IMG/VR virus record: IMGVR_UViG_3300029319_007471
Span: 1-54,471 of that record
Length of the DNA stretch: 54,471 bases
DNA from: a virus
Direction: 5' to 3' (one strand)
Part shown: piece by piece, positions 7,765 through 49,248 of the stretch
How the letters are laid out: the number at the start of each line of letters is the position of its first letter
Position numbering within the stretch: position 1 is the stretch's first letter
Notes under the pieces: model-generated
The model's database searches: none
Seen by the model: the letters and a program-made list of their open reading frames with translations, nothing else
What the model was told of the DNA's origin: nothing
Position numbers and translations under genes: made by a program

Positions 7765-7765
7765 C

Positions 7766-9606: not shown

Positions 9607-9610
9607 TATT

Positions 9611-10762: not shown

Positions 10763-10810
10763 AACTTATCTCCAAATTAATATATTAACTCAATAATAAA
10801 TATCATAGCA

Positions 10811-10848
10811 CAAAAAAAGGGTGAGAAAAACTCCCACCCTTTTTAAGT
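10811..10848 (-). terminator. Rho-independent terminator after the capsid gene
   Basis: The sequence AAAAAGGGTGAG-AAAA-CTCCCACCCTTTTT folds into a strong hairpin with one mismatch or bulge, flanked by A and T runs, so it can act in both directions. It lies 30 bases past the stop of the major capsid gene and ahead of the connector gene. That position would cap the very abundant capsid transcript and lower expression of neck genes. Confidence 0.85.
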
Positions 10849-10876
10849 GTTTGATATAAACTAAGACTAAAATTAA

Positions 10877-12499: not shown

Positions 12500-12525
12500 T
12501 TTATTTCTCCAATTTCAAAGATTAA

Positions 12526-17503: not shown

Positions 17504-18334
17504 CTATTTTATATCATCTAATAATAACATTAAAGTTGAAAGTGATATTGCTTGGTCAGCATCACTAATAGATTTTGGTGGGTTTGGATGTGATTCAATA
17601 ATCAAACCATCCGCTCCAGCCGCGATAGCTGCTTTAGAAATAGCAGGTACAAAGTTTCTATATCCAGTCGCGTGACTTGGGTCATAAATAATTGGAATAT
17701 CACATAATTCTTTTAGTGCGGGTATCATCATTAAATCGGGTGCCCATCTAATAGATGGAAACACGTGACGATAAGATGGCATACCCACCACACCTCGTAA
17801 ACAGATAGCGACCTTTTCATTACCACCAACTAATATTCTTTCAACAGCGCCTAATATCTCATCTATAGTTCCCCAAGTGCCACGTTTTAAAAGAATAGGA
17901 ACATCTAATTCACCAAGTGCATCTAATAAGGTATAGTTTTGAAAGTTACGAGTTCCTACCTGAACTATATCAATACAATCCATTGTGGAACCTGTAATCT
18001 GATATGCATCCATAATTTCAGATACAATAGGTAGTCCAGTCTCCTCTCTGGCTGTTTTAAGAAATCTTAAACCATCTTCTCTTAGTCCCTCTTTCCAACC
18101 GTTACTACCGACCTCTTTAGTTATCGGATATGTGCATGGTTTATATGCACCACCCCTTAACGCGTTAACACCGACTCTCTTCATTTTTTGTGCCCAATCA
18201 ACTATCATTTCTTCGGACTCCACAGAACATGGGCCTGAGATAATATAGGGATTTTCTTCAAACTGCCACCTATTTGGTGATATTGAGATGGATAACTTAT
18301 CTTGTTCGGATAACATTTTTATATAATCGTTCAT
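17504..18334 (-). CDS. aroF: DAHP synthase-like enzyme (3-deoxy-ulosonate-phosphate synthase family)
   Basis: 276 residues, TIM barrel of the DAHP/KDO-8-P synthase superfamily. It condenses phosphoenolpyruvate with an aldose phosphate to a 3-deoxy-2-ulosonate phosphate. Visible signatures: GPCSVES (34-40), LRGGAYKP (59-66), LLKRG (148-152), DPSHATG (218-224), ESHPNP (247-252) and SDADQ. The four metal ligands of type I-beta DAHP synthase are all present (Cys36, His221, Glu247, Asp258). The set resembles DAHP synthase more than KDO-8-P synthase or NeuB. The gene overlaps a CMP-sugar synthetase-like gene by four bases. So it may serve a sugar acid rather than the shikimate route. Regulatory domain absent. 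Confidence 0.85.
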   Translation of the reverse strand: MNDYIKMLSEQDKLSISISPNRWQFEENPYIISGPCSVESEEMIVDWAQKMKRVGVNALRGGAYKPCTYPITKEVGSNGWKEGLREDGLRFLKTAREETGLPIVSEIMDAYQITGSTMDCIDIVQVGTRNFQNYTLLDALGELDVPILLKRGTWGTIDEILGAVERILVGGNEKVAICLRGVVGMPSYRHVFPSIRWAPDLMMIPALKELCDIPIIYDPSHATGYRNFVPAISKAAIAAGADGLIIESHPNPPKSISDADQAISLSTLMLLLDDIK

Positions 18335-21079: not shown

Positions 21080-22237
21080 CTAACCTCTTTTAATTATTTC
21101 AACTACCCTCTCACAATCATATGAATTCATTTTCAAATGAATAGGTAATGTTATTAATTGTTCATTGTATTTATGAGCTTTAGGACACGTACCTTTAGCA
21201 TAATCATACATAGGATAATTTGTATTATCAATGTAATGAACACCTGGATAAATCTCATTATCAGTTAGCTCATTAATCAATTCATCTCTTTTTCCATTTG
21301 TAATCAATCCCTGATACAAATGCTGTGCGGATTGATATGTGTGATGAGAAATCGTAATCGGTTTAAACCAATCAACGTCCTTTAGTAGCTCACTATAAAG
21401 GGTAGCTATTTCTCTTCTTTTTTTATTGTCCTCATTTAAATATTTTAACTGAACTAGACCAATAGATGCCATTATAGAATTTCCGTGATATTTAAAACCT
21501 ACATTTGGGACATCGTATTTCCATTTGTATTTTCCGTCATCGGAAGTTCTACTGAATGTATCCTTATCTATACCCAACCAACTTAATTGTCTTACTAACT
21601 TATCACACTCTTTATCTTTAAAACAAATCATACCTGAATCAGCAGTTGGTAAATTCTTAACCGCTTGAAAACTAAAAACTGAAACATCAGCTTCCCAACC
21701 AACATGCGGTGTAGTATAACCAGCACCATCAAAAATATTCTTCGTTTTTGTACCGGCCATATGAGCGGCGTCTAATATCAATTTTAAATTATTTTCTTTA
21801 CAGATTCTACTAACCGCTCTTAATCTACCAGCATTACCACCCATACCTACAAACATAACAGCTTTAGTTTTAGATGTAATTCTTTTTTCTATTGATTTTG
21901 GACTTAAACAAAGATACTCATCAACATCTGCAAAAACTGGTTTCAGTTTTTCATATAAGATAGCGTGATTGGTAGAAACAAATGTTAATGGTGTTGTTAT
22001 TACTTCATCACCATCTTTCCAACCATACATTTTTTTAAAAGTGTGTAAGGCTAAATGCAATCCTACGGTGTTTGATTGTAGAAAGTGAGCGTTTTGTAAA
22101 GAAGTAAACTCTTTCCACTTTTCTTCAAATTCAATTGTTTTGAAACCCATTCCGCTCCATCCTTTATCAAGACAAATTTTTATTTCATCTAAAATTTCAT
22201 CTGTTCTAAATTTTGGAACAAAAACATTTATACTCAT
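21080..22237 (-). CDS. DegT/DnrJ/EryC1 family PLP aminotransferase
   Basis: 385 residues, the sugar aminotransferase family that puts an amino group on a keto-sugar nucleotide. Cofactor features are visible: GDEVITTPLTFVSTNHAI (75-92), LILDAAHMAG (153-162, Asp156 binds the pyridine nitrogen) and SVFSFQAVKNLPTADSG, with the Schiff-base Lys at 194. It is close to AHBA-synthase/WecE-type sequences. Its stop overlaps the start of the next gene side (ATGA). In the cassette it could use the 4-keto sugar made by the Gmd-like enzyme, as in perosamine synthesis. That link is inference. Confidence 0.9.
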   Translation of the reverse strand: MSINVFVPKFRTDEILDEIKICLDKGWSGMGFKTIEFEEKWKEFTSLQNAHFLQSNTVGLHLALHTFKKMYGWKDGDEVITTPLTFVSTNHAILYEKLKPVFADVDEYLCLSPKSIEKRITSKTKAVMFVGMGGNAGRLRAVSRICKENNLKLILDAAHMAGTKTKNIFDGAGYTTPHVGWEADVSVFSFQAVKNLPTADSGMICFKDKECDKLVRQLSWLGIDKDTFSRTSDDGKYKWKYDVPNVGFKYHGNSIMASIGLVQLKYLNEDNKKRREIATLYSELLKDVDWFKPITISHHTYQSAQHLYQGLITNGKRDELINELTDNEIYPGVHYIDNTNYPMYDYAKGTCPKAHKYNEQLITLPIHLKMNSYDCERVVEIIKRG

Positions 22238-23037
22238 CCTATGACAGAATCCTTTCCTAATTGTTCAAATGGTGGTTCCTCATAATCTAGTCTAGATTGT
22301 CCAGCCCCACACTCAATCATATATTTTGAAAACCTATAATGATTTGATAAATACTTCATACCTTCATATCCAAATACCTTTGAAAATTTATATCCATTCA
22401 AATATTCGGATGTATTCCCATGCGGGTCTCTCGAATCATTACCATCAGGCATTTTGATTAGTGGTTTATCTACATAATCAAAACTACCTATCTCTCTAAT
22501 GTAACTAGCTTTGGAAGTTAAGAAACTACCTCTCATTGACCAACAAACTAATTTATCGTTAAATATATGTTGATTTTCTGGCCTAACATAATCTACCCAC
22601 CTATCATTAGTTTTTAACCAATAAGATAGTCTAGCCTCTTCTAAAGGATTAATCTCCCACGGATAGTTCCAACCATTACCAATAACTTTTGATTTTGGAT
22701 TATTATCAAAATGATTTATACATAATGGAATAAATGACCAATCATGCACAATCATATCATCTTGAATATAAAAAATATAAGTATCATCATCCAGATTCAT
22801 ATCCGTAAACGCTTTGTGATAAGCACCCCACTCTAAACCAATATTTTCATATTGTTGGTATTCAAAATTATCAGTTATAATTTTTGGTGGTGTTTTGTGA
22901 CACGTCCAAAATACATCAATATTTTTATTCTCTGTATTTAATTCAATTAATTGGTTAATAAAATCCGTTTGATTTTCTTTACTATCAAATTTATCATACC
23001 ACCAACCACAGACTATAAATTGAATTTTTTTATCCAT
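22234..23037 (-). CDS. Glycosyltransferase-like protein (GT-A type)
   Basis: 267 residues from the ATG at 23035-23037, which has GGAG eight bases upstream (the longer in-frame start at 23094 lies inside Gmd and lacks such a site). The sequence has IQFIVCGWWYDKFDSKENQ, then YIFYIQDDMIVHDWSF with an acidic DD metal site, and a GNGWNYPWEI block. It looks like a GT-A sugar transferase of a family seen in phage glycan islands. Donor unknown. Confidence 0.65.
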   Translation of the reverse strand: MDKKIQFIVCGWWYDKFDSKENQTDFINQLIELNTENKNIDVFWTCHKTPPKIITDNFEYQQYENIGLEWGAYHKAFTDMNLDDDTYIFYIQDDMIVHDWSFIPLCINHFDNNPKSKVIGNGWNYPWEINPLEEARLSYWLKTNDRWVDYVRPENQHIFNDKLVCWSMRGSFLTSKASYIREIGSFDYVDKPLIKMPDGNDSRDPHGNTSEYLNGYKFSKVFGYEGMKYLSNHYRFSKYMIECGAGQSRLDYEEPPFEQLGKDSVIG

Positions 23038-23998
23038 TACGATTCTCCAATCTTTTAATATCGCTTGATACCATTTTATTAACCATTTGGTCAAACGATG
23101 TTTTTGGTTTCCAACCTAAGACTTCTCTAGCCTTTGTGGAATCACCTCTTAATACATCGACCTCAGCAGGTCTCATATACCTTTCATCCTCTCCAACATA
23201 ACCACTCCAATCAATTATCCCTATATGTTTGAATGCTCTATCCAAAAATTCTCTAATTGAATGTGCTTTACCTGTGGCTATAACATAATCATCTGGTTTA
23301 TTTTGTTGTAACATCAACCACATTGATTCAACATAGTCGGGCGCATATCCCCAATCCCTTTTGGAATCTAAATTTCCTAAAATTATTTTATCCTGCAATC
23401 CACAATATATTTTAGCGACTCCATCAGATATCTTTCTGGTAACAAACTCAATACCTCTTCTTTCAGATTCGTGATTAAATAATATACCACTCACATTGAA
23501 CATATCATAAGACTCTCTGTAATTTTTTGTAATCCAATGTCCGTATAATTTAGCCACCCCATATGGTGAGCGTGGGTAAAAAGGTGTTGTTTCTTTTGCA
23601 GGATTTTCAACCATTCTACCAAACATTTCAGAAGTTGAAGCTTGATAAAATTTAATCTCTTTACCGTATTCTCTGATAGCCTCCAACATTCTTAATGTTC
23701 CTAGTCCAGTAACGTCACCTGTTTGTTCTGGTGTATTCCAACTCTCTCCTACAAATGATTGAGCAGCTAAATGATATATCTCATCTGGTTTAGATTCTTT
23801 TATCACTCTTAATAATGAGTTTTGGTCAGTTAAATCACCATTTAAAAAAGTTATTTTGTTTTCTAAATGTTTGCTGTTTAATCTATTTGGATAAGATGTT
23901 CTTCTTTCCATACCATAAACAGTATAGCCTTTTTTTAATAAAAAATCAGCTAAGTGACTTCCGTCCATCCCATTTACACCTGTTATTAATGCTCTCAT
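23030..23998 (-). CDS. gmd: GDP-mannose 4,6-dehydratase
   Basis: 322 residues. Converts GDP-mannose to GDP-4-keto-6-deoxymannose, the entry to fucose, rhamnose and perosamine sugars. Signatures: GVNGMDGSHLADFLL (7-21), HLAAQSFVGESW (76-87), STSEMFG (121-127), SPYGVAK with Tyr146 and Lys150, and ILFNHESERRG, the substrate loop of Gmd. The usual length is about 345-370, so this is compact but all active-site pieces are there. It overlaps the next gene by eight bases. Confidence 0.95.
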   Translation of the reverse strand: MRALITGVNGMDGSHLADFLLKKGYTVYGMERRTSYPNRLNSKHLENKITFLNGDLTDQNSLLRVIKESKPDEIYHLAAQSFVGESWNTPEQTGDVTGLGTLRMLEAIREYGKEIKFYQASTSEMFGRMVENPAKETTPFYPRSPYGVAKLYGHWITKNYRESYDMFNVSGILFNHESERRGIEFVTRKISDGVAKIYCGLQDKIILGNLDSKRDWGYAPDYVESMWLMLQQNKPDDYVIATGKAHSIREFLDRAFKHIGIIDWSGYVGEDERYMRPAEVDVLRGDSTKAREVLGWKPKTSFDQMVNKMVSSDIKRLENRNG

Positions 23999-24006
23999 TT
24001 TATCTC

Positions 24007-24942
24007 CTAAATTCTGAAAAGAAAAGTGTCATCTTTTTTTTCGTTTAATATTTTTGTCTGATTTATTCTATTGGGTGAACCATCAACAATCGGTAATGGT
24101 ATAACCATATCATTTTCATCATTATCAGGCAGCCTACCATATTTTTGTACAAAAGCGTTAGTGCTATTTATTTCAAATTGTTCTAAATGTTTAGGTCGAT
24201 GATTTAGATTATCATCAGGAAATCTGCTACTACGTGATGCAAAATGCCACATCAATGATTTTGTTGTTAGTGAAAATTCAAAACCCTCATTCATCATTCT
24301 TATATATAAATCTTTATCTTCCCAATACATTGGCGCAAACCTATCATCATTACCACCAATATAATCCCAATCCTCTTTTAAAATAAATCCACTTACACCC
24401 TCAGCTTTTCTGTATTCATAATCATTATTGGATGAAAACTCATCACACCAATCTAAAAAATATTTTTCATTAAAATCGTGATGATAAGCTCCAAACTCCT
24501 CTAAAGGTACAAAGGTGGTTCCTACACGTGGACTATCATTAAAAATATTAGGTTGTATTCTGTAACTAAACGTATGCCACTTTTTATCAGGTTGTTTTTT
24601 CTTATTGTTTTCATAACATCTTTCCAACTCTACATCCCAATTCCTAGCCACATATGTATCGGCTTGTAAAAAATTAATATACTTTGTTTTTACTTTACTG
24701 GCACAAAAATTCATCCCGCCACCTATACCTCTTCTAACCATATTGGTTGGTTCGATATAAACTTCCAAATTCCACTTATCTTTATTTTCATTCAACCACT
24801 CGTTTGTTCCGTCATCACAATTTTCGGCGTAAACAACAAATGGTGAATCTTTGTAATAAGAATTTTCTCTTACAGATTTTATAGCCAAAGGTAAATAATT
24901 TACGTTATTATAAACTGATACACAAAATGTCATTTCACTCAT
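24007..24942 (-). CDS. Glycosyltransferase family 2
   Basis: 311 residues. Opening MTFCVSVYNNVNYLPLAIKSVREN, FVVYAENCDDGTNEWLN, then YINFLQADTYVARNWD (the acidic metal site) and a MYWEDKDLYIRMMNEG segment, the usual GT2 base region. It would add one sugar to the glycan. Its ATG overlaps the stop of the next upstream gene (four bases). Confidence 0.85.
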   Translation of the reverse strand: MSEMTFCVSVYNNVNYLPLAIKSVRENSYYKDSPFVVYAENCDDGTNEWLNENKDKWNLEVYIEPTNMVRRGIGGGMNFCASKVKTKYINFLQADTYVARNWDVELERCYENNKKKQPDKKWHTFSYRIQPNIFNDSPRVGTTFVPLEEFGAYHHDFNEKYFLDWCDEFSSNNDYEYRKAEGVSGFILKEDWDYIGGNDDRFAPMYWEDKDLYIRMMNEGFEFSLTTKSLMWHFASRSSRFPDDNLNHRPKHLEQFEINSTNAFVQKYGRLPDNDENDMVIPLPIVDGSPNRINQTKILNEKKDDTFLFRI

Positions 24943-25727
24943 AAAGTAACCCTTTCAATTGACTCATGCGCTGGATTTGTTTCAGATATTATTTTAAAAT
25001 CAATATTTTTAGACATTAACCATTCATTCAAAAACTTCGTGCTTTTAATTACTGTTTCTGCCTCATGCTTATTTGTTGGTGTTGGTGCATAAACAATATT
25101 AGATTTACCCTCATAAGAATGTTTTTGAAAACTATCATCATAGGGGTCATCTTTGAAAGAATTCATATCAGCTATATCCCAACCTAAAGTTGTTATAGAC
25201 TTAACGCCTAAATGTTCTGCCAAGTGGATAGCGGTTTGAAACATTATGCCCGGCCCATACCAACGAGTTAAAGTTTTATCCAAAGTATATTTATCCCAAC
25301 TATTCTCTCCACATTGTGATTTTAAGTTTTTCTCAATGGTATCAGGTATTCTATTACCATCTATAGGTAACATAATGTCACATCTAATATTATTATCTAA
25401 AATCATTTTAGGATGAAAGTGTTCATATACTTCCCAAACAACAATTGTGTTAGATGAGTAATTTTCATAAGGTTCGTAATTAGCAAAATTGAGCACGTGG
25501 AAATCAGTAACATCCATAAAGTTTTTTATTGATTGTTTTAAAGATATGATGATTTTGTCTTTTAGTTTTTCCTTAACGTAATTTACATCGTAATTATTTA
25601 GGGACGGGCCAGCGGCTAGAATAAAACAATCCTCTGTATCATAATAGTCCTTTAGGCATTCAACCCTATCAGGTATATCTTCAAACTTTTTTATTTTAGA
25701 TAATAATGTTTTATTTTTTTCTATCAT
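24939..25727 (-). CDS. DUF115/Maf-like protein
   Basis: 262 residues with a FILAAGPSLNNYDVNYV start region (about residues 35-52), a YGPGIMFQTAIHLAEHLG stretch and SITTLGWDIADM. This matches the 6-hydroxymethylpterin-like/Maf (DUF115) group, some members of which transfer nonulosonic acids to flagellin. So it may use the CMP-sugar acid made by this cassette. The match is read by eye. It shares one base with the KdsB gene. Confidence 0.55.
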   Translation of the reverse strand: MIEKNKTLLSKIKKFEDIPDRVECLKDYYDTEDCFILAAGPSLNNYDVNYVKEKLKDKIIISLKQSIKNFMDVTDFHVLNFANYEPYENYSSNTIVVWEVYEHFHPKMILDNNIRCDIMLPIDGNRIPDTIEKNLKSQCGENSWDKYTLDKTLTRWYGPGIMFQTAIHLAEHLGVKSITTLGWDIADMNSFKDDPYDDSFQKHSYEGKSNIVYAPTPTNKHEAETVIKSTKFLNEWLMSKNIDFKIISETNPAHESIERVTL

Positions 25728-26530
25728 TATCTGATACCACTTTTTCTTTTATCTGTAATTTGAGAATAAATTTGTTGTTTTCTGAATATCTTTTCAACCT
25801 CTGATACATCCTCTGGAAAATCAACGGCTAAAGTTCCACCTTCAACTCTAACCATCTTTACTCGCTTACCCATCTCTAAAAATCTGATAATCTCTATATC
25901 CTCAGATAACTCTGCTGGTGTCTTACCACTATCCTTACCTCTCTCAAAATAAGTTTTTAATTCATCTTTATTAAAAGCGTATACACAAACCTGCTTGAAT
26001 GCGCTTTTCACAATACCATTTTTACTTGATGGTATAGCGTTTCTAGACACATACATTAATTCATCATTGAGATTAGTGGCTACTTTACAGGTTTTCAAAT
26101 CATTTGGGTCTTCGGATGATGTTAACTTAGCCATACAGGTAACGACTGAATTACTATTCTTAATTTTTTCCTTAACAACTTGCACAATATCATTAGGATT
26201 TAAAAGAGCTTCATCACCTTGCACATTAACAAATATATCAGCATCGATTTGTAACGATGCTTCAGCAACTCTATCGGTGCCTGTTAAACAATCTTCAGAG
26301 GTTCTTACAACATTATAATTATATTCTTTTACTTTATCCTCTATCCTATCATCATCGGTAGCAACAAAAACATTTTCTTTTCCAACCGCTTTACTTGATA
26401 AGTCAGCTACCCTAACAACCATAGGTTTACCCAATATATCAACCAAAGGTTTACCTGGAAATCTGGTCGATTTATATCGTGATGGAATAATTACTACAAC
26501 TTTTTTATTAAATTTCATCTTTATCTCCAT
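25727..26530 (-). CDS. kdsB: CMP-KDO synthetase (3-deoxy-manno-octulosonate cytidylyltransferase)
   Basis: 267 residues (263 from the second Met). It activates KDO or a similar 3-deoxy acid with CTP. Signatures: VVIIPSRYKSTRFPGKPL (the RxxSxRxPGKPL loop), VFVATDDDRI, a TGTDRVAEA block and DIFVNVQGDEALLN with the QGDEP-like catalytic segment. Sequence is close to bacterial KdsB (about 250 residues). It overlaps the aldolase-like gene by ten bases. No KDO transferase (KdtA) is seen, so the product probably goes to the family GT29-like or DUF115-like transferases here. That is inference. Confidence 0.9.
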   Translation of the reverse strand: MEIKMKFNKKVVVIIPSRYKSTRFPGKPLVDILGKPMVVRVADLSSKAVGKENVFVATDDDRIEDKVKEYNYNVVRTSEDCLTGTDRVAEASLQIDADIFVNVQGDEALLNPNDIVQVVKEKIKNSNSVVTCMAKLTSSEDPNDLKTCKVATNLNDELMYVSRNAIPSSKNGIVKSAFKQVCVYAFNKDELKTYFERGKDSGKTPAELSEDIEIIRFLEMGKRVKMVRVEGGTLAVDFPEDVSEVEKIFRKQQIYSQITDKRKSGIR

Positions 26531-27261
26531 TTAGTAATTTCGTGAAAACTATCATACAAAACTTTGGTGTCCACACCATAGGTCAAAAAGTTCACTCCAA
26601 TACTTTGAAACTTTTTTAATTCATTTTTGTTATGAAAAAGACATCCGACACTCTTTTTTGAATCCCTTATTATTTTAGTAGTTTTTTCTAAAATATTAAA
26701 CACATCCTTATGATTGGTTGATTTTCCTAAAGTTTGTGCTATGTCATACGTGCCCACATAAACTAAATCAATAAACTCATTATCAACGATACTCTCAACG
26801 TTTCTTAAACCCTTTATATCTTCAATAATAATACCAACTATACTTTCTTGATTAATAACATCGGTAGATTTTTCATCTTTCATTTTTCCAAAATCTCCAC
26901 CACGAATGTAAGGTGAAAATCCTCTATCACCTAAAGGATGATATTTAGCCGCTTTAATAATTTTTTCAACATCTCCCATCTGTTTGACGTGAGGGACTAT
27001 TATACCGTTACAACCCGTATCTAAAGATGTGGATATTAAGTAATCTAAATTTTTAGGAACCCTAATCAAACCATTACACCAATTTGTTTGTGCAGCTGTA
27101 ACCATTTGTTGTGCTGTTTTTAAATCAATCGCTCCGTGCTCCATATCAACAATAACGAAGTCCAAACCAGCTTTGGTCAGTAAATCAACAACCTCAGGTG
27201 ATGGTAATATACACCAGGTTCCTATAACTTCCTTTTGTTCTTTTAATAATAACTTAAGCAT
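26521..27261 (-). CDS. HpcH/HpaI-type 2-keto-3-deoxy aldolase
   Basis: 246 residues of the class II pyruvate aldolase family. Signatures: IGTWCILPSPEVVDLLTKAG, FVIVDMEHGAID (15-40, with the Asp-Met-Glu-His segment of HpaI), GCNGIIVPHVKQ and RGFSPYIRGGDFG. Metal ligands and Arg are in place. It catalyses reversible addition of pyruvate to an aldehyde, giving 2-keto-3-deoxy acids. With KdsB and a HAD phosphatase beside it, a sugar-acid role is attractive. Confidence 0.85.
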   Translation of the reverse strand: MLKLLLKEQKEVIGTWCILPSPEVVDLLTKAGLDFVIVDMEHGAIDLKTAQQMVTAAQTNWCNGLIRVPKNLDYLISTSLDTGCNGIIVPHVKQMGDVEKIIKAAKYHPLGDRGFSPYIRGGDFGKMKDEKSTDVINQESIVGIIIEDIKGLRNVESIVDNEFIDLVYVGTYDIAQTLGKSTNHKDVFNILEKTTKIIRDSKKSVGCLFHNKNELKKFQSIGVNFLTYGVDTKVLYDSFHEITKWR

Positions 27262-27637
27262 CCATAACCTCTAAAAATTTCAAAGTATTTTTTTGAGACA
27301 ACACATCACCAAAACCTAAAACTTTATCATCGATATAATAATCCGCCATTATTTTTGGACTATAACCTGATAACTTCTTTTGGTTGGGTAGATTTTCATT
27401 AACAGCATCAAATTCTAAACCTCTTTCCTTACACCATTCGACTGCTTCGGTTAGAACAGGATATTCCTCGTTATCACCCCTATTTGTCCAAAGTATTAAC
27501 TTATGTCCTTCATCTCTTAATTTAATTAATGTTTTCAATAGTTTTTTATGATTTTCTGTTTGTTTTCCTATTTTTGGAAAATCAAACTCACATAACGTAC
27601 CATCAAAATCAACTGCGAATGTAAGTTTTTCCTGCAT
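27254..27637 (-). CDS. HAD-superfamily phosphatase-like protein
   Basis: 127 residues from the ATG at 27635-27637, preceded by AAGGAGAAGGTT, a strong ribosome site (the longer frame to 27670 has none). The HAD catalytic motif FAVDFDGTLCEF is at the start (Asp10 and Asp12), LILWTNRG is motif II, and KIMADYYIDDKV carries the final acidic pair. No cap domain, as in KDO-8-P phosphatase (KdsC) and small phage HADs. It could remove the phosphate from a 3-deoxy-acid phosphate. Overlaps the iron-sulfur gene by 29 bases. Confidence 0.8.
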   Translation of the reverse strand: MQEKLTFAVDFDGTLCEFDFPKIGKQTENHKKLLKTLIKLRDEGHKLILWTNRGDNEEYPVLTEAVEWCKERGLEFDAVNENLPNQKKLSGYSPKIMADYYIDDKVLGFGDVLSQKNTLKFLEVMDA

Positions 27638-28733
27638 AACCTTCTCCTTTATTGATATTACTATCAACAAGATTCTTTCCTATTAAATAAGCCTGTTTTA
27701 TATTATCATAATCTTTATAAAAATTATCATCGTCATAGGAATAATTTGTTTTTATCCTATCATAAATTAGATTTCTAGCAAATGTACCCACCGCAACTCC
27801 CTGAAATCTTACATCACCTTGCACTGCTAAATCGGCTGTTAACGTATTGGTTCCGCCTGATAATACGACGTTTAATTTTTTTCTTCTCGTATATTGTAAT
27901 TGTTTAGTTTTTTTATTTAACCTCATATTGAAATTTTTATTTACCACATCCGCAGTAGCAACTGCCTGTAATGTAGTATTGAAATCATCTTGTCCGCCAC
28001 TCATAGGATACCCATCGGCTTGTAAAATCATTAAACCAGGCTTTGTCATCTCTAAAGCTTTTTCTATTCTATTTTTTAACTCAAAATTACCAATATGTAA
28101 CCTATCTAAACACATACTATTGTGACCATCAGGATTTGATTTAATAACGGTTTCCCACTCTTTCATTATTACATCCGTTTCGGCGACAGCCGCGTGTAAC
28201 TCAATGTTTTCTGCTCCTAACTCTATACAATGAGGTAAAAGTTCCTCTAACAATTTATCATTGTGACTATAAGTTATACAATCCATAATCGGACAAACAG
28301 CGCTACAAGCACCACAACCAATACATTTTTCCTCTATTACAAACGCTGTTTCAACTTTTATTTCGATAGGTTCAATAGCTACAGTCGGACATACCGGCGC
28401 CACACATAGACCACATTTAATACATAAATCTTCGTGAATATATGCTTTTCTAACGTGGTGGTCGCCAGGCATACCAACGCTAATCATTATAAAAGGTTTG
28501 ATTCCAATATCTATGTTTAATTTATGAGCTATCTCATAAGCCCTATTAATACCATCAACAGCAGCTAAGACAACGGATGGTGTTGTTGATATGTCCAATC
28601 CTTTTGCACCTGCTAAGGTATAAATCATAGCTAGTCTTCTAACCTCTTCAGTATCCTCATTCCCAGCACCACATATCATTTTAAAATATTGTCCTGTATC
28701 CAAAAGGTTTTGTAATTCTAATGTTCTATCCAT
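27609..28733 (-). CDS. LdpA-like protein with two [4Fe-4S] clusters
   Basis: 374 residues. The start YFKMICGAGNEDTEEVRRLAM...AGAKGLDIS resembles cyanobacterial LdpA, which senses redox state for the clock, and the same N-terminal layout occurs in other LdpA-like proteins. Two ferredoxin-type motifs follow near residues 105-155: CIKCGLCVAPVCP and CIGCGACSAVCP. Further on are GPGLMILQADGYPMSGG-like and VLSGGTNTLTADLA...GVAVGTFARN segments, typical of the LdpA tail. So it is probably a redox or metabolic iron-sulfur protein. In a phage this is unusual. Fe-S clusters are certain by motif. Function and LdpA identity are inference. Confidence 0.65.
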   Translation of the reverse strand: MDRTLELQNLLDTGQYFKMICGAGNEDTEEVRRLAMIYTLAGAKGLDISTTPSVVLAAVDGINRAYEIAHKLNIDIGIKPFIMISVGMPGDHHVRKAYIHEDLCIKCGLCVAPVCPTVAIEPIEIKVETAFVIEEKCIGCGACSAVCPIMDCITYSHNDKLLEELLPHCIELGAENIELHAAVAETDVIMKEWETVIKSNPDGHNSMCLDRLHIGNFELKNRIEKALEMTKPGLMILQADGYPMSGGQDDFNTTLQAVATADVVNKNFNMRLNKKTKQLQYTRRKKLNVVLSGGTNTLTADLAVQGDVRFQGVAVGTFARNLIYDRIKTNYSYDDDNFYKDYDNIKQAYLIGKNLVDSNINKGEGYAGKTYIRS

Positions 28734-29515
28734 TATACTCTTTCATCTAATAAGCTAGCTCTGTTTAAATATGAATTACCAATGTTCATATAGTAAGATG
28801 ATTTTGACCTCAACCAAAGTGATTCAAAGGTTATAGCATTTTTAATAGCCTCAGATAAATTATTGATATTATTATCATCTAATTCAAACACCACATTTCT
28901 AGTTTCTATCTTATCTAATAAGTTTTGTTTGTATAATTTTCTCACAAAATCAACACTATCAACCGATATGCTACCACCCATAATCGTATTTAATTTATAC
29001 TCTTTTGCCTGTTCAAATACATCCCTAACAATGTTAAATATCTCATCATCATTTACATTACTTTTTGTTAGTCCAAATGATTTACATAAATCAGAGCGAC
29101 CTAATACTATCCCATTAAGATACCTACAATAATTCGAACTAATTATATCAGTTATATTGTCGTATGCTGTTTTACTTTCTATATTAACATAGCATTTAAT
29201 TTTTTGTCTAAGTTGTGGTGTTAAGTTGTCATCTAATGAAGTAATAAACTTCTCTAATGCAAAAGGTGATTCAACCATAGGAGCGACCATACCATCAACA
29301 TTTAAGACTAAACAATTGTTAATATCACTAATAGCTTCACATCCACCTATTTTCATATTAAGGAAAATATCTGTGCTCAAACAAAGTTGTCTAAGCTTTA
29401 TTAACTCTTCAAATTTAACACCTTCATCTTCAAAAGATGATTTTATTCCAACGACATTGTAATCGGACTTTAAACTTTTTAGTGTATTCAATAATTCTTT
29501 ATGATTGTAAATCAT
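28733..29515 (-). CDS. HpcH/HpaI aldolase-like protein
   Basis: 260 residues. Motifs of the pyruvate-aldolase/citrate-lyase beta superfamily: VVGIKSSFEDEGVKF, MKIGGCEAISDI, VDGMVAPMVESPFALEKFI, NIESKTAYDN and GIVLGRSDLCKSF. The metal-binding Glu and Asp appear present, but the sequence is far from the family centre. The gene shares a base with the LdpA-like gene (28733) and follows a promoter, so it may be the first gene of a metabolic operon. Substrate unknown. Confidence 0.6.
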   Translation of the reverse strand: MIYNHKELLNTLKSLKSDYNVVGIKSSFEDEGVKFEELIKLRQLCLSTDIFLNMKIGGCEAISDINNCLVLNVDGMVAPMVESPFALEKFITSLDDNLTPQLRQKIKCYVNIESKTAYDNITDIISSNYCRYLNGIVLGRSDLCKSFGLTKSNVNDDEIFNIVRDVFEQAKEYKLNTIMGGSISVDSVDFVRKLYKQNLLDKIETRNVVFELDDNNINNLSEAIKNAITFESLWLRSKSSYYMNIGNSYLNRASLLDERV

Positions 29516-29566: not shown

Positions 29567-30268
29567 TTATTTTCGTTCAAATTCATATTCAAAAAAGTTG
29601 ATATCTTTCTTAAACATCTTAGCAATAAATTCTTGGCTTTCATCATCATAATAATCTGAATAATGTTTATGAGACGATTTGTTGGCTGATGGTAATTGTG
29701 GGATTGGTTTTAGATTCAACTCACTAAACATATTATTCCAATCCTCATTCAAATTTTCAAATCTTAAAATTTTATTTACCAATAGATTACCTTTTAAATC
29801 ACAAACAACATCAAGTTGATTTATAAATTCAATATTAGCTCTAAGAAAGTTAACGTTAAATTTAGTTTCTTTTAAAAAAGCGCCACTAGCCATCTCAAAG
29901 TAAATTTCATTGGAATCAACATTTTTTATACCAGGATCCATTATCCATCTTTTAAAACCCCAAACTTTACCGTCTGGCCCAAACGATTTATCAACTCCTA
30001 AATTATTCATATATAAATCTTTTTGTTGTTTTCTGAAGTGATATAAAGAAACCATTCTGTCCCACGGATTTCTGACCACCGTAAATTTAGTGTAAGAGTT
30101 AAAAATTCTTGGGTCTGTGTATTTTTGTATATCTATTGCAAGATTTGTGGTTTTTTTAAAGACCTTTGGGTGATATTTGGTATCTAAACCTAAAATTCTT
30201 CTAACGCTAACACCCGCATTTTTAGGTATGTGAAAGAAAATTAGCGGATATTTGAGACTTTCATTCAT
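29567..30268 (-). CDS. Sulfotransferase-like protein
   Basis: 233 residues. The PAPS-binding start LIFFHIPKNAGVSVRRILG and the 3'-phosphate site FTVVRNPWDRMVSLYHFRK are both visible, the two signatures of the Golgi-type/bacterial sulfotransferase family. It would transfer a sulfate from PAPS to a sugar hydroxyl, modifying the glycan. The host must supply PAPS. It ends the run of genes just upstream of the promoter and overlaps the upstream gene by eight bases. Confidence 0.85.
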   Translation of the reverse strand: MNESLKYPLIFFHIPKNAGVSVRRILGLDTKYHPKVFKKTTNLAIDIQKYTDPRIFNSYTKFTVVRNPWDRMVSLYHFRKQQKDLYMNNLGVDKSFGPDGKVWGFKRWIMDPGIKNVDSNEIYFEMASGAFLKETKFNVNFLRANIEFINQLDVVCDLKGNLLVNKILRFENLNEDWNNMFSELNLKPIPQLPSANKSSHKHYSDYYDDESQEFIAKMFKKDINFFEYEFERK

Positions 30269-31187
30269 TTATTTTTCCTTTTATAAATTTATTTACTTCC
30301 TCTCTATAATGTTTTTGTGCGACAACTCTAAATTTTTGTTTGAATTCATCACTATTGGTTAAATCAGCTATGTATGGTAGATACGGATTTAAATCCCTAT
30401 ATTTTCTATTCTCACAGACTAACATATTATCTAAAATATATTGATTAATATCGTAACCTGATTTTGACATAATACCAGCACATTCAAAAATAAATGTATC
30501 GTCTAATCCATAGGAGCCAAATGAATCTGGTATGTCAATGTACTTTAACAAATTTGAGCTAAACAAATTAAACCAACCACCACCAAACTTAAAGTCATTT
30601 AATTTTTTTATCTTTACTTCACTTAAATAGTTGTAAACCTCAGAATCTAAGCCGTAAGGGTCATACTTCAACCATATTTTTGATTCGATGCCCATAGGTA
30701 TGTATCTATCATTTGAAATGATATTCCAACCATCATCCCATAGCCTTAAAATTTGCGAGTTTAGAATATAATATTCGTCCTTTATATTATCTAAGGCTCT
30801 AAACATATAAGCTAAATTAAATTGTGAGAAAAAGACATCAGTATCTAAATACATAAAATTTTTCGGATTATATTCTCTTATGCTATTTCTTCTTTTGTCG
30901 TTTATACCCAAACATCTATTACTTTCACCATCATTTATCTCAAAAATATTTTTGTATGTCCAATCGGATTTCGATTCCATAACTTTATACTTTTCAACAA
31001 AGAAATCCTTTGGTAATTTGCTAGCGTTCCAATCCGTATAATAATCTGATAAATTTAAGGTAAAATCTAATACAACTTTGTCGTTTTTTTCTAAATAATG
31101 ACTAGATATCTTTAATTGATTTACTATTCTTTCTAAGTCATCTATTTCACGCGGTAAACAATGTAATATTATATGAATATCATTCAT
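30261..31187 (-). CDS. Glycosyltransferase-like protein (GT-A type)
   Basis: 308 residues. Features: FMYLDTDVFFSQFNLAYM (a DxD-type site, residues about 130-145), NDRYIPMGIESKIW and a FGGGWFNLFSSNLL...DSFGSYGLDDTFIF C-terminal segment, as in bacterial GT-A enzymes with a late GLDD motif. Acts on the glycan. It overlaps the GT29-like gene by four bases. Confidence 0.7.
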   Translation of the reverse strand: MNDIHIILHCLPREIDDLERIVNQLKISSHYLEKNDKVVLDFTLNLSDYYTDWNASKLPKDFFVEKYKVMESKSDWTYKNIFEINDGESNRCLGINDKRRNSIREYNPKNFMYLDTDVFFSQFNLAYMFRALDNIKDEYYILNSQILRLWDDGWNIISNDRYIPMGIESKIWLKYDPYGLDSEVYNYLSEVKIKKLNDFKFGGGWFNLFSSNLLKYIDIPDSFGSYGLDDTFIFECAGIMSKSGYDINQYILDNMLVCENRKYRDLNPYLPYIADLTNSDEFKQKFRVVAQKHYREEVNKFIKGKINE

Positions 31188-31795
31188 TTAAGTATCGTTG
31201 GTTTAAAGTTATCTTTTAAAAACTCCCAACATTGTCTTTCTGCTGATATTTTGTGGTGGCCATCTTTAAATTTATCGTAAAAATACTCTGTAGTCCTATC
31301 ATCTGTTTTTGAAAAGTAATGTCCAAATTTATATTTGTCATTGTAACCATCAAAACCAACTAAAGTTACATCCATATCGAAACATTTTAATATATGATAA
31401 GTACCTATTAAGCCAGTTGAAGGCCAACCACCCCCAAACTCAGCTTCTCTTTTTAAATTTGTTTCTACACTGGTTGGAATAAACACTAACTTTTCTGGAT
31501 ATTTATCATATTGATTTTTAATTCGTTGAACCTCTGACTCCCATTTAAAAGCTGGTGTGCCTATTAAAATGTAAGCAGTATTTTCAAATAATTCATCGGA
31601 CATATATTCATCAGTCATAAATCCATCATGCACAATCAATATATCGGTTCTACTACCAACATTTTTTTCGTATCCGTCAATACCTTCAAAAAAACCCCTA
31701 TTCATACGACAAACTAAATCAAATTTATCAATTTGTTTCCCGTATTCATTATCTAACATTGATGAACCGTTTCCAACTATAACCAATTTTTCCAT
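31184..31795 (-). CDS. Sialyltransferase-like protein, family GT29
   Basis: 203 residues. All four GT29 sialylmotifs can be read in order. Motif L is LVIVGNGSSMLDNEYGKQID...LVCRMNR...VGSRTDIL (residues 4-54). Motif S is GWPSTGLIGTYHI...CFDMDVTLVGFDG (123-150). Motif III is GHYFS (158-162). Motif VS is HKISAE (His171-x4-Glu176). The family moves a CMP-bound nonulosonic acid to a sugar. In animals it is membrane-bound, here the domain is free-standing without a membrane segment. With KdsB and a NeuA-like protein in the same operon it is a good partner for a CMP-sugar acid. Confidence 0.8.
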   Translation of the reverse strand: MEKLVIVGNGSSMLDNEYGKQIDKFDLVCRMNRGFFEGIDGYEKNVGSRTDILIVHDGFMTDEYMSDELFENTAYILIGTPAFKWESEVQRIKNQYDKYPEKLVFIPTSVETNLKREAEFGGGWPSTGLIGTYHILKCFDMDVTLVGFDGYNDKYKFGHYFSKTDDRTTEYFYDKFKDGHHKISAERQCWEFLKDNFKPTILK

Positions 31796-31799
31796 AATC

Positions 31800-32432
31800 T
31801 TAACCTTTTTGTATGTTTATACTTTGATATAAGGAATTTTGTTTTTCTTGCTTTTTTATATTTTTTGGATGATATAAAGATAACTCTTCATTTGGTGGAA
31901 GATGAGCGTATGTCTTACAGCCAGTTATTCTTTCATGCACTTTACCTGCCCATCTTATATTAGGGTCATTTTTAAAAATTCTACTCTGATAATCTGGATA
32001 ATTAACCCAACCTTTTTCTGTTATTCTCCATCCCCATTTGACACAATGTTCTTCGGTTATTCCATCAACCGTATTAACTCTTGGAACCCAAATCATTTCA
32101 ACACCCTCATTTACCTCTATGATGTCTTTTAACTGATTTAGTAAATTTTTATGTGGATACTCATCAGCATCAATGTGGAAGATATAATCACCCGTACATT
32201 TTTCTATCACAAAGTTTTTTTGTTCAGCGAAGTCACCCTCAAACTTTTTATCATAAACTTTAATGTTCTTCGATTCTTTATGGTCATTTAATAAAGCACC
32301 AACTGGCACATCCATTCCATCCCTAACAATTATTATTTCATCTCCCTCATCAATATTTTTTTTCAATATTTTTAGTAATTCGAATAATTCTTCTGATTCA
32401 TCTTTTACTGTTATTCCATAACTAATCTTCAT
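31800..32432 (-). CDS. Glycosyltransferase family 2
   Basis: 210 residues. ISYGITVKDESEELFELLKIL start, EIIIVRDGMDVPV, and then DYIFHIDADEYPHKNLLNQL (DxD at about residue 93). A WGWRITEKGWVNYPDYQSRIF segment and the LPPNEELSLYHPKN tail are typical of short GT2 enzymes found in marine phages. Ends the block of glycan genes. Confidence 0.85.
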   Translation of the reverse strand: MKISYGITVKDESEELFELLKILKKNIDEGDEIIIVRDGMDVPVGALLNDHKESKNIKVYDKKFEGDFAEQKNFVIEKCTGDYIFHIDADEYPHKNLLNQLKDIIEVNEGVEMIWVPRVNTVDGITEEHCVKWGWRITEKGWVNYPDYQSRIFKNDPNIRWAGKVHERITGCKTYAHLPPNEELSLYHPKNIKKQEKQNSLYQSINIQKG

Positions 32433-39273: not shown

Positions 39274-40193
39274 TTTATTACTCCTAATAATTCTATTAAC
39301 ATAGCCATCGCATTGATTTCTTTATCAACCACTTGACCATCTGAAAGTTCGTATCTGGCTATTATCAATATACACTCTGCCACGTGACCAGCACCCCAAC
39401 TATCAACCTCATCATATAATAATCTAAATAAATCTGCAAAATCAGTTATCTTATTATCAGCTAATAATTGTCTTATTTCTTTGAATGCGTCTTTCTTTGG
39501 TTTTGTTTTTAATATTTCTAATAACTTAAGTTTGTAATCATTTTGTATAATACTTTTAGTATCTAACTTTAGTTCATTGTTAACGATATTTCTTTGTGCT
39601 GAATTAATAACCCTACGGATATCAGGATATCCACTTTCTATCAATACCTTCAAATCGTCAATGTTACTATTAATATTTTCTTTAACCAAAATATTGTGAA
39701 GATGTTTTGCCACATCACTTTTGGATGGAGGGATTATCTGGAAAGATTGACATCTACTTTGTATTGGGTCAATAATTCTTTCAACATAATTACAAGTCAA
39801 AATAAACCTACAATGTTTTGAGAATGTTTCCATAAGGTTACGAAGAGCGGCTTGTGCGTTTGGTGTAATATAATCACACTCATCTAAGATAATCACTTTC
39901 ATATCTTTGAAACCGATGGTAGATGCGAAGTTCTTAACTTTGGTTCTTACGGTTTCAACGTTATTCTCATCCGATGCGTTGATATAAAGATAATCACATT
40001 CTATATTATTTACTAACAATTTTGCGAGAGTGGTTTTACCTGTACCAGCCTTACCATATAGTAGAAGATGTGGCAAGTCCCCACTCTCAAGATAAATAGA
40101 CACCTTACTTTTTAGATGCTCATTACCAATGTAGGTGTCTAGATTGGAAGGCCGATATTTTTCTACCCATAGAGTATTAGTTGAATGATTCAT
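39270..40193 (-). CDS. 44: Clamp-loader ATPase large subunit (gp44/RFC-like)
   Basis: 307 residues, AAA+ ATPase. Walker A is GKAGTGKT (47-54), the box II motif is DECD (104-107), the sensor/arginine-finger SRC is at 146-148, and the start WVEKYRPSNLDTYIGNEHLK is the RFC box. It assembles with gp62 to load the clamp onto primed DNA. The end is a helical collar domain. It overlaps the Mom-like gene by 17 bases. Confidence 0.95.
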   Translation of the reverse strand: MNHSTNTLWVEKYRPSNLDTYIGNEHLKSKVSIYLESGDLPHLLLYGKAGTGKTTLAKLLVNNIECDYLYINASDENNVETVRTKVKNFASTIGFKDMKVIILDECDYITPNAQAALRNLMETFSKHCRFILTCNYVERIIDPIQSRCQSFQIIPPSKSDVAKHLHNILVKENINSNIDDLKVLIESGYPDIRRVINSAQRNIVNNELKLDTKSIIQNDYKLKLLEILKTKPKKDAFKEIRQLLADNKITDFADLFRLLYDEVDSWGAGHVAECILIIARYELSDGQVVDKEINAMAMLIELLGVIK

Positions 40194-40941
40194 TAATTAC
40201 CTCAATTTTTTGTATTTCTGCTGTTGAGTTTGCTTCCTTTGGATAAGGAAATAACTTATGTTTTAGACTTTTCATAAACACCTTATTCTCTCTTTTATTA
40301 CCAAGAAAATAAATGTATCGATGTTTTTCAGCTTCTTTTTTTAACCAGAATGTATGTCCTATTTGTTTCTTTAAATGCTCGACATTACTACTACCATATC
40401 TACTATAAACGTTGCGAGAATGCATCCATTCACCATCTTCCTCAAGCCTCAGAGCATAAGTGGGAGCAGCTTGAAAAGCACCCTGCCCTTGATACAACCA
40501 ATTAGTAGCTTGATAAATAAAGCCTGAGTGATTCTGTTCTGGATCGGCGTATGATATCAACACCTTAACATCTGGCGCATATTTCTTCAACCATTTAAAA
40601 GATTGTGATATAGCGTAAGATTCTATGTTAGAACCAAAACCATTTTTTACACATAACCTCGTTAACTCAAGTATGTTTCTGTTTCCAATTATATCTTCAT
40701 TGAATATAGAACCGACAACCCTTCTACCTTTTGGAAAACCATAGGTTAGAGTGCCTATGAGGTGTTCTTCGGTATCGTCAAAGAATTTGTGTTGATTATC
40801 AGTTTTATAATATAAACCTAAAGCATATCTACAAGAAGATAACTTACCACTATAGTGATATTTAGATACTATTTTAGCGGATACCTTTTTAGGAATTCTA
40901 TCAAGCGATACACGAGATGTATCAACATACTCTTTATTCAT
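40177..40941 (-). CDS. Mom-like DNA-modification protein
   Basis: 254 residues from the ATG at 40939-40941 (the longer frame to 41016 lies inside the clamp gene). GNAT-like Mom family signatures: KYHYSG (27-32), LIGTLTYG (61-68), LELTRLCVKNG (91-101), ESYAISQSFKWLKK (107-120) and SYADPEQNHSGFIYQATNWLY (130-150). In phage Mu, Mom converts adenine to a carbamoylmethyl derivative that blocks many restriction enzymes. Here the chemistry is inferred by family. The promoter just upstream leaves almost no leader, so the mRNA may be leaderless. Confidence 0.8.
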   Translation of the reverse strand: MNKEYVDTSRVSLDRIPKKVSAKIVSKYHYSGKLSSCRYALGLYYKTDNQHKFFDDTEEHLIGTLTYGFPKGRRVVGSIFNEDIIGNRNILELTRLCVKNGFGSNIESYAISQSFKWLKKYAPDVKVLISYADPEQNHSGFIYQATNWLYQGQGAFQAAPTYALRLEEDGEWMHSRNVYSRYGSSNVEHLKKQIGHTFWLKKEAEKHRYIYFLGNKRENKVFMKSLKHKLFPYPKEANSTAEIQKIEVINESFN

Positions 40942-40946
40942 AACTG

Positions 40947-40976
40947 AATATAATAAAAAAAGCCAATATAAGTCAA
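40947..40976 (-). promoter_or_regulatory. Sigma70-type promoter (leaderless candidate)
   Basis: Minus strand: TTGACT (40971-40976), 18-base spacer, TATATT (40947-40952), preceded by AAAAAAGGC. The -10 box ends only five bases before the ATG at 40941, so transcription would start near the start codon and there is no ribosome site. It drives the Mom-like gene and gp44 onward. Confidence 0.75.
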
Positions 40977-40985
40977 GCCTTTTTT

Positions 40986-41705
40986 TTAATCTACGGTGGT
41001 TGTTGCTACTAACCAATAAGTGACATCATAGTCGTCAACTTTAAAATTGATTCTACCCAATCCTTGCGAACTAATTTCTAAAGTAGCTGATTCACATTCA
41101 CCATTTGCGGTTAACACATCAGAGAATAAATTAGCGTTAAAAGATACGTTCTCAATATCAACATAATTTTCGGACTCAGCTGGAATTGTAACTCTATTAG
41201 TATTGATTGAAGAATAACCAATGACAATCTTTACAGACTCACCATCTGACAATACAGTAAAGCTATCAGTTTCAGATAAAGCTTTTTTACCTGCGATGAA
41301 TTTTTTAATAAACGTACTATCAACCTTTAATCTGAGTTCGAACTCAGGAACGTTTTTTAGTTGTGGTGGTTTATTAATAACCGATAAATCAGATAACATA
41401 TAGTTAACTGATGCGTTGTCATCTTTTACTTTTAGTGCTACAGATTTTCCATTTGATGATGATAAGTCAATTGTGATATCTTCTCCTAAAACGCTTAGAA
41501 GTTTTGTTAATTGTTCGGTATCATAAACACCCAACTCAGAATTGTCAAACTTCCAATTCTTCATTTTAAGTTCACCAAGTAATGATTTATCGCCAGACAT
41601 AAATCTGGTTTCTAAATTGTTATCATTAGTTGTAAGAACAACAGAATTAACATTACCACCTAAATGGTATTTTTCAATGAATCTATTTAACTTAGATTTT
41701 TGCAT
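40986..41705 (-). CDS. 45: Sliding clamp (gp45-like)
   Basis: 239 residues with the clamp fold: KLNRFIEKYHLGGNVNSVVLTT start, a MSGDKSLLGELKMKNWKFDN segment, FELRLKVDSTFIKKFIAGKKAL (domain link) and SEDVKIVIGYSS-like strands. It forms a ring that holds polymerase and late-sigma on DNA. It is close in length to T4 gp45 (228). The start follows AGGAGAAAGTTATAATG. Its own upstream promoter is noted separately. Confidence 0.85.
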   Translation of the reverse strand: MQKSKLNRFIEKYHLGGNVNSVVLTTNDNNLETRFMSGDKSLLGELKMKNWKFDNSELGVYDTEQLTKLLSVLGEDITIDLSSSNGKSVALKVKDDNASVNYMLSDLSVINKPPQLKNVPEFELRLKVDSTFIKKFIAGKKALSETDSFTVLSDGESVKIVIGYSSINTNRVTIPAESENYVDIENVSFNANLFSDVLTANGECESATLEISSQGLGRINFKVDDYDVTYWLVATTTVD

Positions 41706-48054: not shown

Positions 48055-49248
48055 TTATCTACCTACTTCTCCCAAGTATTTAGCTTTTGTCTCATCCCAA
48101 GTAGTGTTCAATACATCAGCGTAAAACAACTTCTCCGGCTTAATCTTATTTTCATCCAATAACTTTGAGTATCTTCTAATAGCCTTTGGTTTCCACCAAT
48201 TGTTGATGTAATCCATATCCTCAACATATTTCTTTTTCATAACCAAATCTTTCTCATCAATTTCATTTCTCAAAAATAGTTTACCATTCTCATACATATC
48301 GGCATAATAAATACCCCTTTGAAATCCATGCTCAAAGTCTTTTAACTTTAATCCCAACTCATCATAAATCATTTTGATTATCTTTTGCTTAACGCCTGTA
48401 ACTGGCCCTGCCACACCACTCTTTTGTGTTGTCTCTCTGAGATATCTCTCTGATTTATTTTCCTTAACCCAATCATGCCAAACATCATATGATGAATCAT
48501 CTGGCTTCAAACTTATTCTACCTGATGATTCTCCTAAGGTTTTCCAATGTGGGATTCCATTGTACATCGAATGTATGCCATACAATGATGTGGTGGATAA
48601 TCCAACTAAGGTTTGATTATACAACTTTTTCCACATATCTCTAACTACCGAAGAGGTGACCATAGCTGCTACCAACTTACCACCTAAAAAATTAAAACCT
48701 AAAGGTTGGACACAACAAATGGTTGTGCCGATTGACGTATGATTCAACTTACCATCTTTGAATTTATTATCTTTTGTCCATCCTATAAATGAATCTCTGG
48801 CTCCTAATGAGGTAACATCGGAACCTAAACAGATTAAACCTAAAACCTTATTTGTATTCTTATCCTTAACATAGAACTTAATGTTTCTACCTGGATTTGC
48901 TGTGAACTCCATAGTGTGGATTAATCTTCTGAGTAATGTCCAATTCTCACTATCTTTAGGATTACCCTGCTCCACAGTTTCTACAATTGGATTTAAAGAC
49001 TCTATCTCACTAATTGTTTGTTCTTTGTTATAGATATCTTTAGGCACCCAAATAGATTTTTCTAATCCATCAAATTTAGATGCCTTTTGTAACATTGAAT
49101 AAGAGTCTTTGTTAAACTCTTCCCATTTTTTATATAATGTAATTTCCTGCACCGACATAGACTTTAGGAAATTTAAATTTTCTATAAACTTTTTTTTCTC
49201 CGATTCGTAATCGAATTTTGGTTCATCAAAAAAATTATCAAACGACAT
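48055..49248 (-). CDS. DUF4338 protein (DruA-like)
   Basis: 397 residues. The family core is visible: KVLGLICLGSDVTSLGARDSFIGW (residues 133-156), QPLGFNFLGGKLVAAMVTSS and VRDMWKKLY, matching the pattern 'liGil.lgdpv..laaRd.wIGW ... l.GgKLvA.l..S..vrd...kYg'. DUF4338 includes DruA of the Druantia anti-phage system and proteins of unknown function. No DruB-E are here. It begins one base from the GT-B gene stop. It may serve as a phage counter- or inter-phage defence factor. Confidence 0.7.
   Translation of the reverse strand: MSFDNFFDEPKFDYESEKKKFIENLNFLKSMSVQEITLYKKWEEFNKDSYSMLQKASKFDGLEKSIWVPKDIYNKEQTISEIESLNPIVETVEQGNPKDSENWTLLRRLIHTMEFTANPGRNIKFYVKDKNTNKVLGLICLGSDVTSLGARDSFIGWTKDNKFKDGKLNHTSIGTTICCVQPLGFNFLGGKLVAAMVTSSVVRDMWKKLYNQTLVGLSTTSLYGIHSMYNGIPHWKTLGESSGRISLKPDDSSYDVWHDWVKENKSERYLRETTQKSGVAGPVTGVKQKIIKMIYDELGLKLKDFEHGFQRGIYYADMYENGKLFLRNEIDEKDLVMKKKYVEDMDYINNWWKPKAIRRYSKLLDENKIKPEKLFYADVLNTTWDETKAKYLGEVGR

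Follow-up and report, generated by a model that had tools for sequence, protein, structure and literature searches.

A minimal GT29-family glycosyltransferase in the glycan operon of a T4-like phage, with CMP-KDO as candidate donor

The window, that is, the whole 54,471-nucleotide stretch of IMG/VR record IMGVR_UViG_3300029319_007471, is a 54-kb virus fragment which carries a T4-like major capsid protein, a clamp loader and a DNA polymerase that shares 47% identity with its counterpart in Microcystis phage Mel-JY01. Structural genes are located at 10.9–12.5 kb and replication genes at 37–44 kb. Between them lies a 203-aa open reading frame with an ATG start (Table 1), a position that makes contamination with host DNA unlikely. 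The plus strand across the same interval is crowded with stops. The gene starts 4 nt after the upstream gene for a family 2 glycosyltransferase (GT2), and an ATGA overlap joins its stop to the start of the next gene; therefore, it belongs to a tightly packed operon. Elsewhere in the window, a 397-aa protein (48055–49248, minus strand) matches DruA of the Druantia defence system (PF14236, E=3.9e-24), here in a phage genome. A Mom-family DNA-modification protein (40177–41016, minus strand; PF25680, E=5.8e-45) is encoded amid the T4-like replication genes, and a peptide deformylase (52229–52819, minus strand) carries a C-terminal SEC-C motif.

Table 1. Coordinates of the GT29 gene, its motifs and the associated genes of the window
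Feature	Position	Strand	Evidence or signature
GT29 transferase, 203 aa, motifs L/S/III/VS complete, without membrane/stem region	31184..31795	-	PF00777, AF2/Foldseek, profile match 2wml
Motif L	residues 4-50		V7-G8-N9 ... G19xxID ... R30-N32 ... G47-S-R-T50
Motif S	residues 125-148		P125-S-T-G128 ... V-G147-F148
Motif III			H159-Y160
Motif VS			H181-x4-E186
Family 2 glycosyltransferase, directly upstream of GT29	31800..32432	-	PF00535 E=5.4e-12
308-aa protein, overlaps GT29 stop by ATGA	30261..31187	-	DTD + GLDD motifs
Carbohydrate-type sulfotransferase (Sulfotransfer_2)	29567..30268	-	PF03567 E=1.2e-16
Second HpcH/HpaI-type aldolase-like protein	28733..29515	-	PF03328 E=1.8e-9
Small HAD-type phosphatase, BT0820-like	27254..27670	-	NF046079 95 bits, under cut-off 165
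HpcH/HpaI-type 2-keto-3-deoxy sugar acid aldolase	26521..27261	-	PF03328 E=3.3e-23
KdsB, CMP-KDO synthetase, 267 aa, complete	25727..26530	-	NF009905 266 bits, cut-off 255
GDP-mannose 4,6-dehydratase	23030..23998	-	TIGR01472 435 bits, cut-off 415
DegT/PseC-type sugar aminotransferase	21080..22237	-	PF01041 E=2.3e-81
Short cytidylyltransferase-like protein, 193 aa	18331..18912	-	PF02348 E=7.4e-17 over first 115 residues
DAHP-synthase-type ulosonate synthase	17504..18334	-	PDB DAH7P synthase E=1.5e-53 vs KDO8P synthase E=6.4e-20

The 308-aa protein encoded next to the transferase gene gave no Pfam family above cut-off, no PHROG and no PDB match; its DTD and GLDD motifs suggest a putative GT-A-like glycosyltransferase. 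A GT4-type transferase is also encoded in the operon, besides the GT2, the GT-A-like candidate and the sulfotransferase. Some of these neighbours recur in other loci: a close homologue of the GT2 (8e-60) is found in L006 together with GT29, NeuB and a CMP-synthetase, sulfotransferases accompany GT29 in L028 and L289, and small HADs are met near phage GT29 genes. The glycan operon also contains a gene for an LdpA-like 4Fe-4S protein (27609–28733, minus strand; 147 bits, under the cut-off of 450). LdpA is a circadian clock family of cyanobacteria.

All four sialylmotifs of family GT29 (L, S, III and VS) are present, in order, in the 203-aa protein. The first-pass annotation had recognized this complete set, with an error of ten residues in motif VS: the pair given as His171-x4-Glu176 is His181-x4-Glu186. 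The protein was rightly described as minimal, since its chain begins 3 residues before motif L; the type II membrane anchor and the stem region are absent. Leu4 replaces the motif-L cysteine of the animal enzymes, and the disulphide between motifs L and S is lacking. In GT29 enzymes, the motif III His helps the phosphate to leave, and the VS His (with Glu) acts on the acceptor hydroxyl as general base.

The assignment to GT29 is confirmed by independent comparisons. PF00777, the profile proposed for checking it, matches the protein with 63.4 bits (cut-off 23, E=2.9e-17, profile positions 58–269 of 272) and is the only Pfam family found at E<=1. Plain phmmer retrieves pig ST3Gal-I at E=1.9e-8. 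A profile built from 27 viral homologues matches only GT29 chains in PDB (2wml, E=1.7e-23), and its VS His and Glu columns align with HDGDFE of ST3Gal-I and HPLLFE of ST6Gal1. The AlphaFold (AF2) model (pLDDT 82.5, pTM 0.83), compared with known structures as had also been advised, finds GT29 sialyltransferases at Foldseek ranks 1–30 in PDB (E 2e-9 to 1.4e-6, then a jump to 1.5e-3 for the first non-GT29 match), with the caveat that GT29 structures were included in AlphaFold training. By these best 30 matches, the predicted model has the variant GT-A fold of GT29. The product of 31184–31795 is thus a genuine GT29 protein, ordinary for the family in fold and motifs; its context is the interesting part.

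Other families were considered. A placement in DUF115 or a GT-B family, which the first-pass annotation had named as the outcome that would speak against GT29, is contradicted by Pfam, PDB sequence profiles and Foldseek alike. DUF115/MptE-like (PF01973) has no match to the 203-aa frame, and the MptE-like protein of the window is encoded by a separate gene (24939–25727). No GT-B glycosyltransferase is found among the listed Foldseek fold matches. The bacterial sialyltransferases of GT42, GT52 and GT80 are not supported, with PF00777 alone at E<=1 and no such chain in the best 50 Foldseek matches, nor are the KDO transferases of GT30, GT99 and GT73, with no Pfam match at E<=1 except GT29 and no GT-B fold match. 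PHROGs contain no family matching the protein. A degenerate or non-enzymatic protein with a GT29 fold could be suspected from the shortness of the chain, its long end branch in the tree and residues 161–180 of the model, between motifs III and VS, which are of low confidence. We regard this as very improbable, since the reading frame is unbroken and forms part of an operon and since, in alignment with relatives, the protein keeps all CMP-site and catalytic positions.

The distribution of the family was followed with a fixed-spacing DNA pattern for motif L, scanned over bacterial and viral contigs. The pattern matched at least 118 bacterial and at least 118 viral stretches; among the matches listed, GT29 is encoded in 117/118 bacterial and 113/118 viral loci according to an HMM built here. 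All proteins of the first homologue set (33/33, all from viral or phage records, that of the window included) match PF00777 individually, and 8 of the 25 viral contigs tested also encode a T4-like capsid protein. Among the matches listed, 116/119 viral and 102/108 bacterial relatives have the His equivalent to H181, and 114/119 and 104/108, respectively, the Glu equivalent to E186. The motif III His occurs in only about 43–45% of the viral and bacterial relatives listed, and this split suggests two prokaryotic GT29 subgroups. On the viral contigs L003, L015, L026 and L215, GT29 is combined with a methyltransferase or GT8 domain; in the first three, the putative identity of the extra domain comes from length and sequence.

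Several searches gave no match: a scan of IMG/VR with the window protein as sole query, aimed at close relatives, tblastn against a plasmid collection, and a profile scan of genome contigs with one homologue alignment (A5). Three GT29 queries against 50,697 phage records matched no named phage isolate, the only matches being two uncultured huge phages, LR756508 and LR756500. The 'alpha-2,3/2,8-sialyltransferase' of phage TayeBlu (PMC12772287) was considered as a phage GT29 and set aside: it was unmatched by GT29 searches, and its name points to GT42. Literature searches yielded GT29 of eukaryotic viruses and none of phages. Petit et al. 2018 (PMC5811610) described 23 bacterial GT29 sequences, mostly alphaproteobacterial, with viruses unmentioned. 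The earlier view of GT29 as a mainly animal family is out of date in light of these published members and the bacterial and viral stretches found here.

Genes that could provide a donor are encoded in the window. The KdsB noted in the first pass is complete, and its 13/13 PDB matches are KDO cytidylyltransferases (best E=1.3e-39); its gene is located 4.7 kb downstream of GT29 on the same strand and is not adjacent to it. The supposed NeuA-like protein is indeed cytidylyltransferase-like, with similar PDB scores for KdsB (E=2.3e-5) and NeuA (E=2.4e-4) that leave the two types indistinguishable; it covers only the N-terminal half of the fold and may be incomplete. Its gene overlaps that of the ulosonate synthase, the two forming a pair at 17.5–18.9 kb. 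By sequence comparison, the synthase is DAHP-like and clearly not KdsA. The KPRTSP motif of DAHP synthases reads KPCTYP in this protein, whose substrate may be other than erythrose-4-phosphate. Because the synthase is DAHP-like rather than KdsA-like and carries this altered motif, a related ulosonic acid is conceivable as donor.

Use of another donor by the phage enzyme, for example a CMP-activated C7 sugar produced by this overlapping gene pair, would agree with the change from KPRTS to KPCTY in a synthase that is DAHP-like and not KdsA-like, and with a proposed transfer of the C7 ulosonic acid Dha by plant GT29s (PMC11288761). However, 12 kb separate the pair from GT29, and the cytidylyltransferase of the pair may be incomplete; we consider such a donor distinctly unlikely.

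Relatives of the phage gene are linked to CMP-sugar pathways of both kinds. NeuB-type linkage, usually with a CMP-synthetase, is observed in nine loci (L002, L004, L006, L204, L215, L222, L231, L262 and L267). On the 200,903-base viral contig L204, a 480-aa fusion of CTP_transf_3 and GT29 (6530–7972) is followed by NeuB, and in L002, from the huge phage LR756508, four tandem GT29 paralogues surround NeuB (7947–12768). KDO-type linkage is represented by LR756500, which has kdsA and kdsB above curated cut-offs and a kdsD-like isomerase under cut-off, all about 8 kb from GT29, and by L028 and L033, whose synthases bear the KdsA signature (DKANRS/T, D-x-THS) and lie near CMP-synthetases and GT29. 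Among the matches listed, GT29 adjoins a CMP-sugar-pathway gene in 15 of the 33 loci holding such genes, against 7.3 expected from random open reading frames of the same loci (within-locus permutation, P about 0.0009); the figure is somewhat optimistic, since some of the genes used to seed the profiles for the synthetases, NeuB and KdsA were themselves neighbours of GT29. At the level of loci, the CMP-sugar genes occur within the fetched flanks of 17/97 viral and 18/103 bacterial GT29 loci among the matches listed. The viral rate shows no clear enrichment over a GT2-pattern control (2/24), whose 24 loci are too few for a firm comparison, so the within-locus permutation was used instead. Because most GT29 loci have no CMP-sugar genes in the fetched flanks, other donors are possible.

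In the tree, the phage protein is loosely placed, with long branches and a support of 71, among neighbours that are mostly Fidelibacterota GT29s. Several of these sit beside NeuB and a CMP-synthetase; by this evidence a nonulosonic donor would be favoured, which counts against KDO. The donor could then be a true nonulosonic acid, with CMP-Neu5Ac, CMP-legionaminate and CMP-pseudaminate as candidates; it would come from the host or from phage genes outside the fragment, and KdsB would serve another transferase. The nearest neighbours L104 and L161 lie beside NeuB and synthetases, most linked phage GT29s adjoin NeuB and PseF/NeuA-like synthetases, and the window itself encodes a PseC-like aminotransferase. 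Nevertheless, KdsB is the sole complete cytidylyltransferase of the window, and a search for NeuB across the 54-kb record found none, which is weak evidence, as the record is a fragment. On these grounds a nonulosonic donor is judged unlikely.

A CMP-KDO or related CMP-3-deoxyulosonate donor is favoured because KdsB is complete, a DAHP-synthase-like protein is present and no NeuB was found in the window. The first-pass suggestion of a KDO- or nonulosonic-type transferase would fit both the KdsB of the operon and the linkage of relatives to KdsA/KdsB or to NeuB and CMP-synthetases. RCKT1/MGP2 of Arabidopsis, also a GT29, is a CMP-KDO transferase by genetic evidence, with in vitro confirmation still awaited there (PMC11288761), and is a genetic precedent for such use of the donor.

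The phage protein is probably a cytosolic inverting ulosonate transferase. On balance, we favour a minimal GT29 of this kind which takes CMP-KDO or a related CMP-3-deoxyulosonate and, during infection, adds an acidic sugar to the glycan built by the operon. For the reaction, its precise donor and acceptor and its role in the biology of the phage, we infer the following. Motifs L and S would bind a CMP-activated alpha-keto-acid sugar, most likely CMP-KDO from the phage's own KdsB or a close CMP-3-deoxyulosonate relative. His159 of motif III would assist departure of the phosphate, and His181, together with Glu186, would activate the acceptor hydroxyl as general base. The acidic sugar would be added to a glycan produced by the GT2, GT4-type and GT-A-like transferases and the sulfotransferase. 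This glycan would be displayed on the host envelope or the phage particle, with a change in receptor recognition. It is also conceivable, if improbable, that the phage possesses an unusual CMP-3-deoxyulosonic acid of its own, produced by the altered DAHP-like synthase and the short cytidylyltransferase, and that GT29 attaches the product. If that were true, phage and bacterial GT29s would be general cytosolic ulosonic-acid transferases (with KDO, C7 and C9 donors), and animal sialyltransferases one branch of them.

GT29 is usually presented as an animal sialyltransferase family. As far as the searchable literature goes, the protein described here is a new phage member of this known family. Bacteria and phages widely encode GT29 in a minimal soluble form, physically linked (once fused) to CMP-sugar synthetases, NeuB or KdsA. 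This linkage offers a direct way to test the evolution of the donor, sialic acid versus KDO, and suggests that phages decorate the surfaces of hosts or virions with acidic sugars resembling sialic acid. The phage proteins are also compact candidate enzymes for glycan synthesis.

The GT29s of LR756508 (four in tandem beside NeuB) and LR756500 (one, with kdsA/kdsB/kdsD-like genes) are likewise of phage origin; both records are unannotated, and their proteins share less than 30% identity with that of the window. Virus-encoded GT29 is also known from eukaryotic viruses, namely F-sial of a turtle herpesvirus (PMC3462797) and the enzyme of EhV (PMC5371807), whose hosts are eukaryotes and not bacteria; F-sial, which resembles the vertebrate enzymes most, is anchored by a transmembrane segment. 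Bacterial GT29s (PMC5811610) contain all sialylmotifs as well, and the nearest tree neighbours of the phage protein are bacterial, whereas the window copy lies in a T4-like phage operon. With the animal enzymes (pig ST3Gal-I and others; PDB 2wnb/2wml, 6qvt, 5bo9, 6apl) the phage protein shares the fold (TMq 0.55–0.69), motifs L, S, III and VS and the catalytic His and Glu, at about 22% identity and with 203 aa against 265–318 aa in the solved animal chains. Unlike them, it has neither a transmembrane or stem region nor the motif-L cysteine, and it is found in a bacterial-virus setting. The plant RCKT1/MGP2 is a Golgi enzyme acting on RG-II, and the CMP-KDO donor proposed for it is also the one suggested for the phage GT29.
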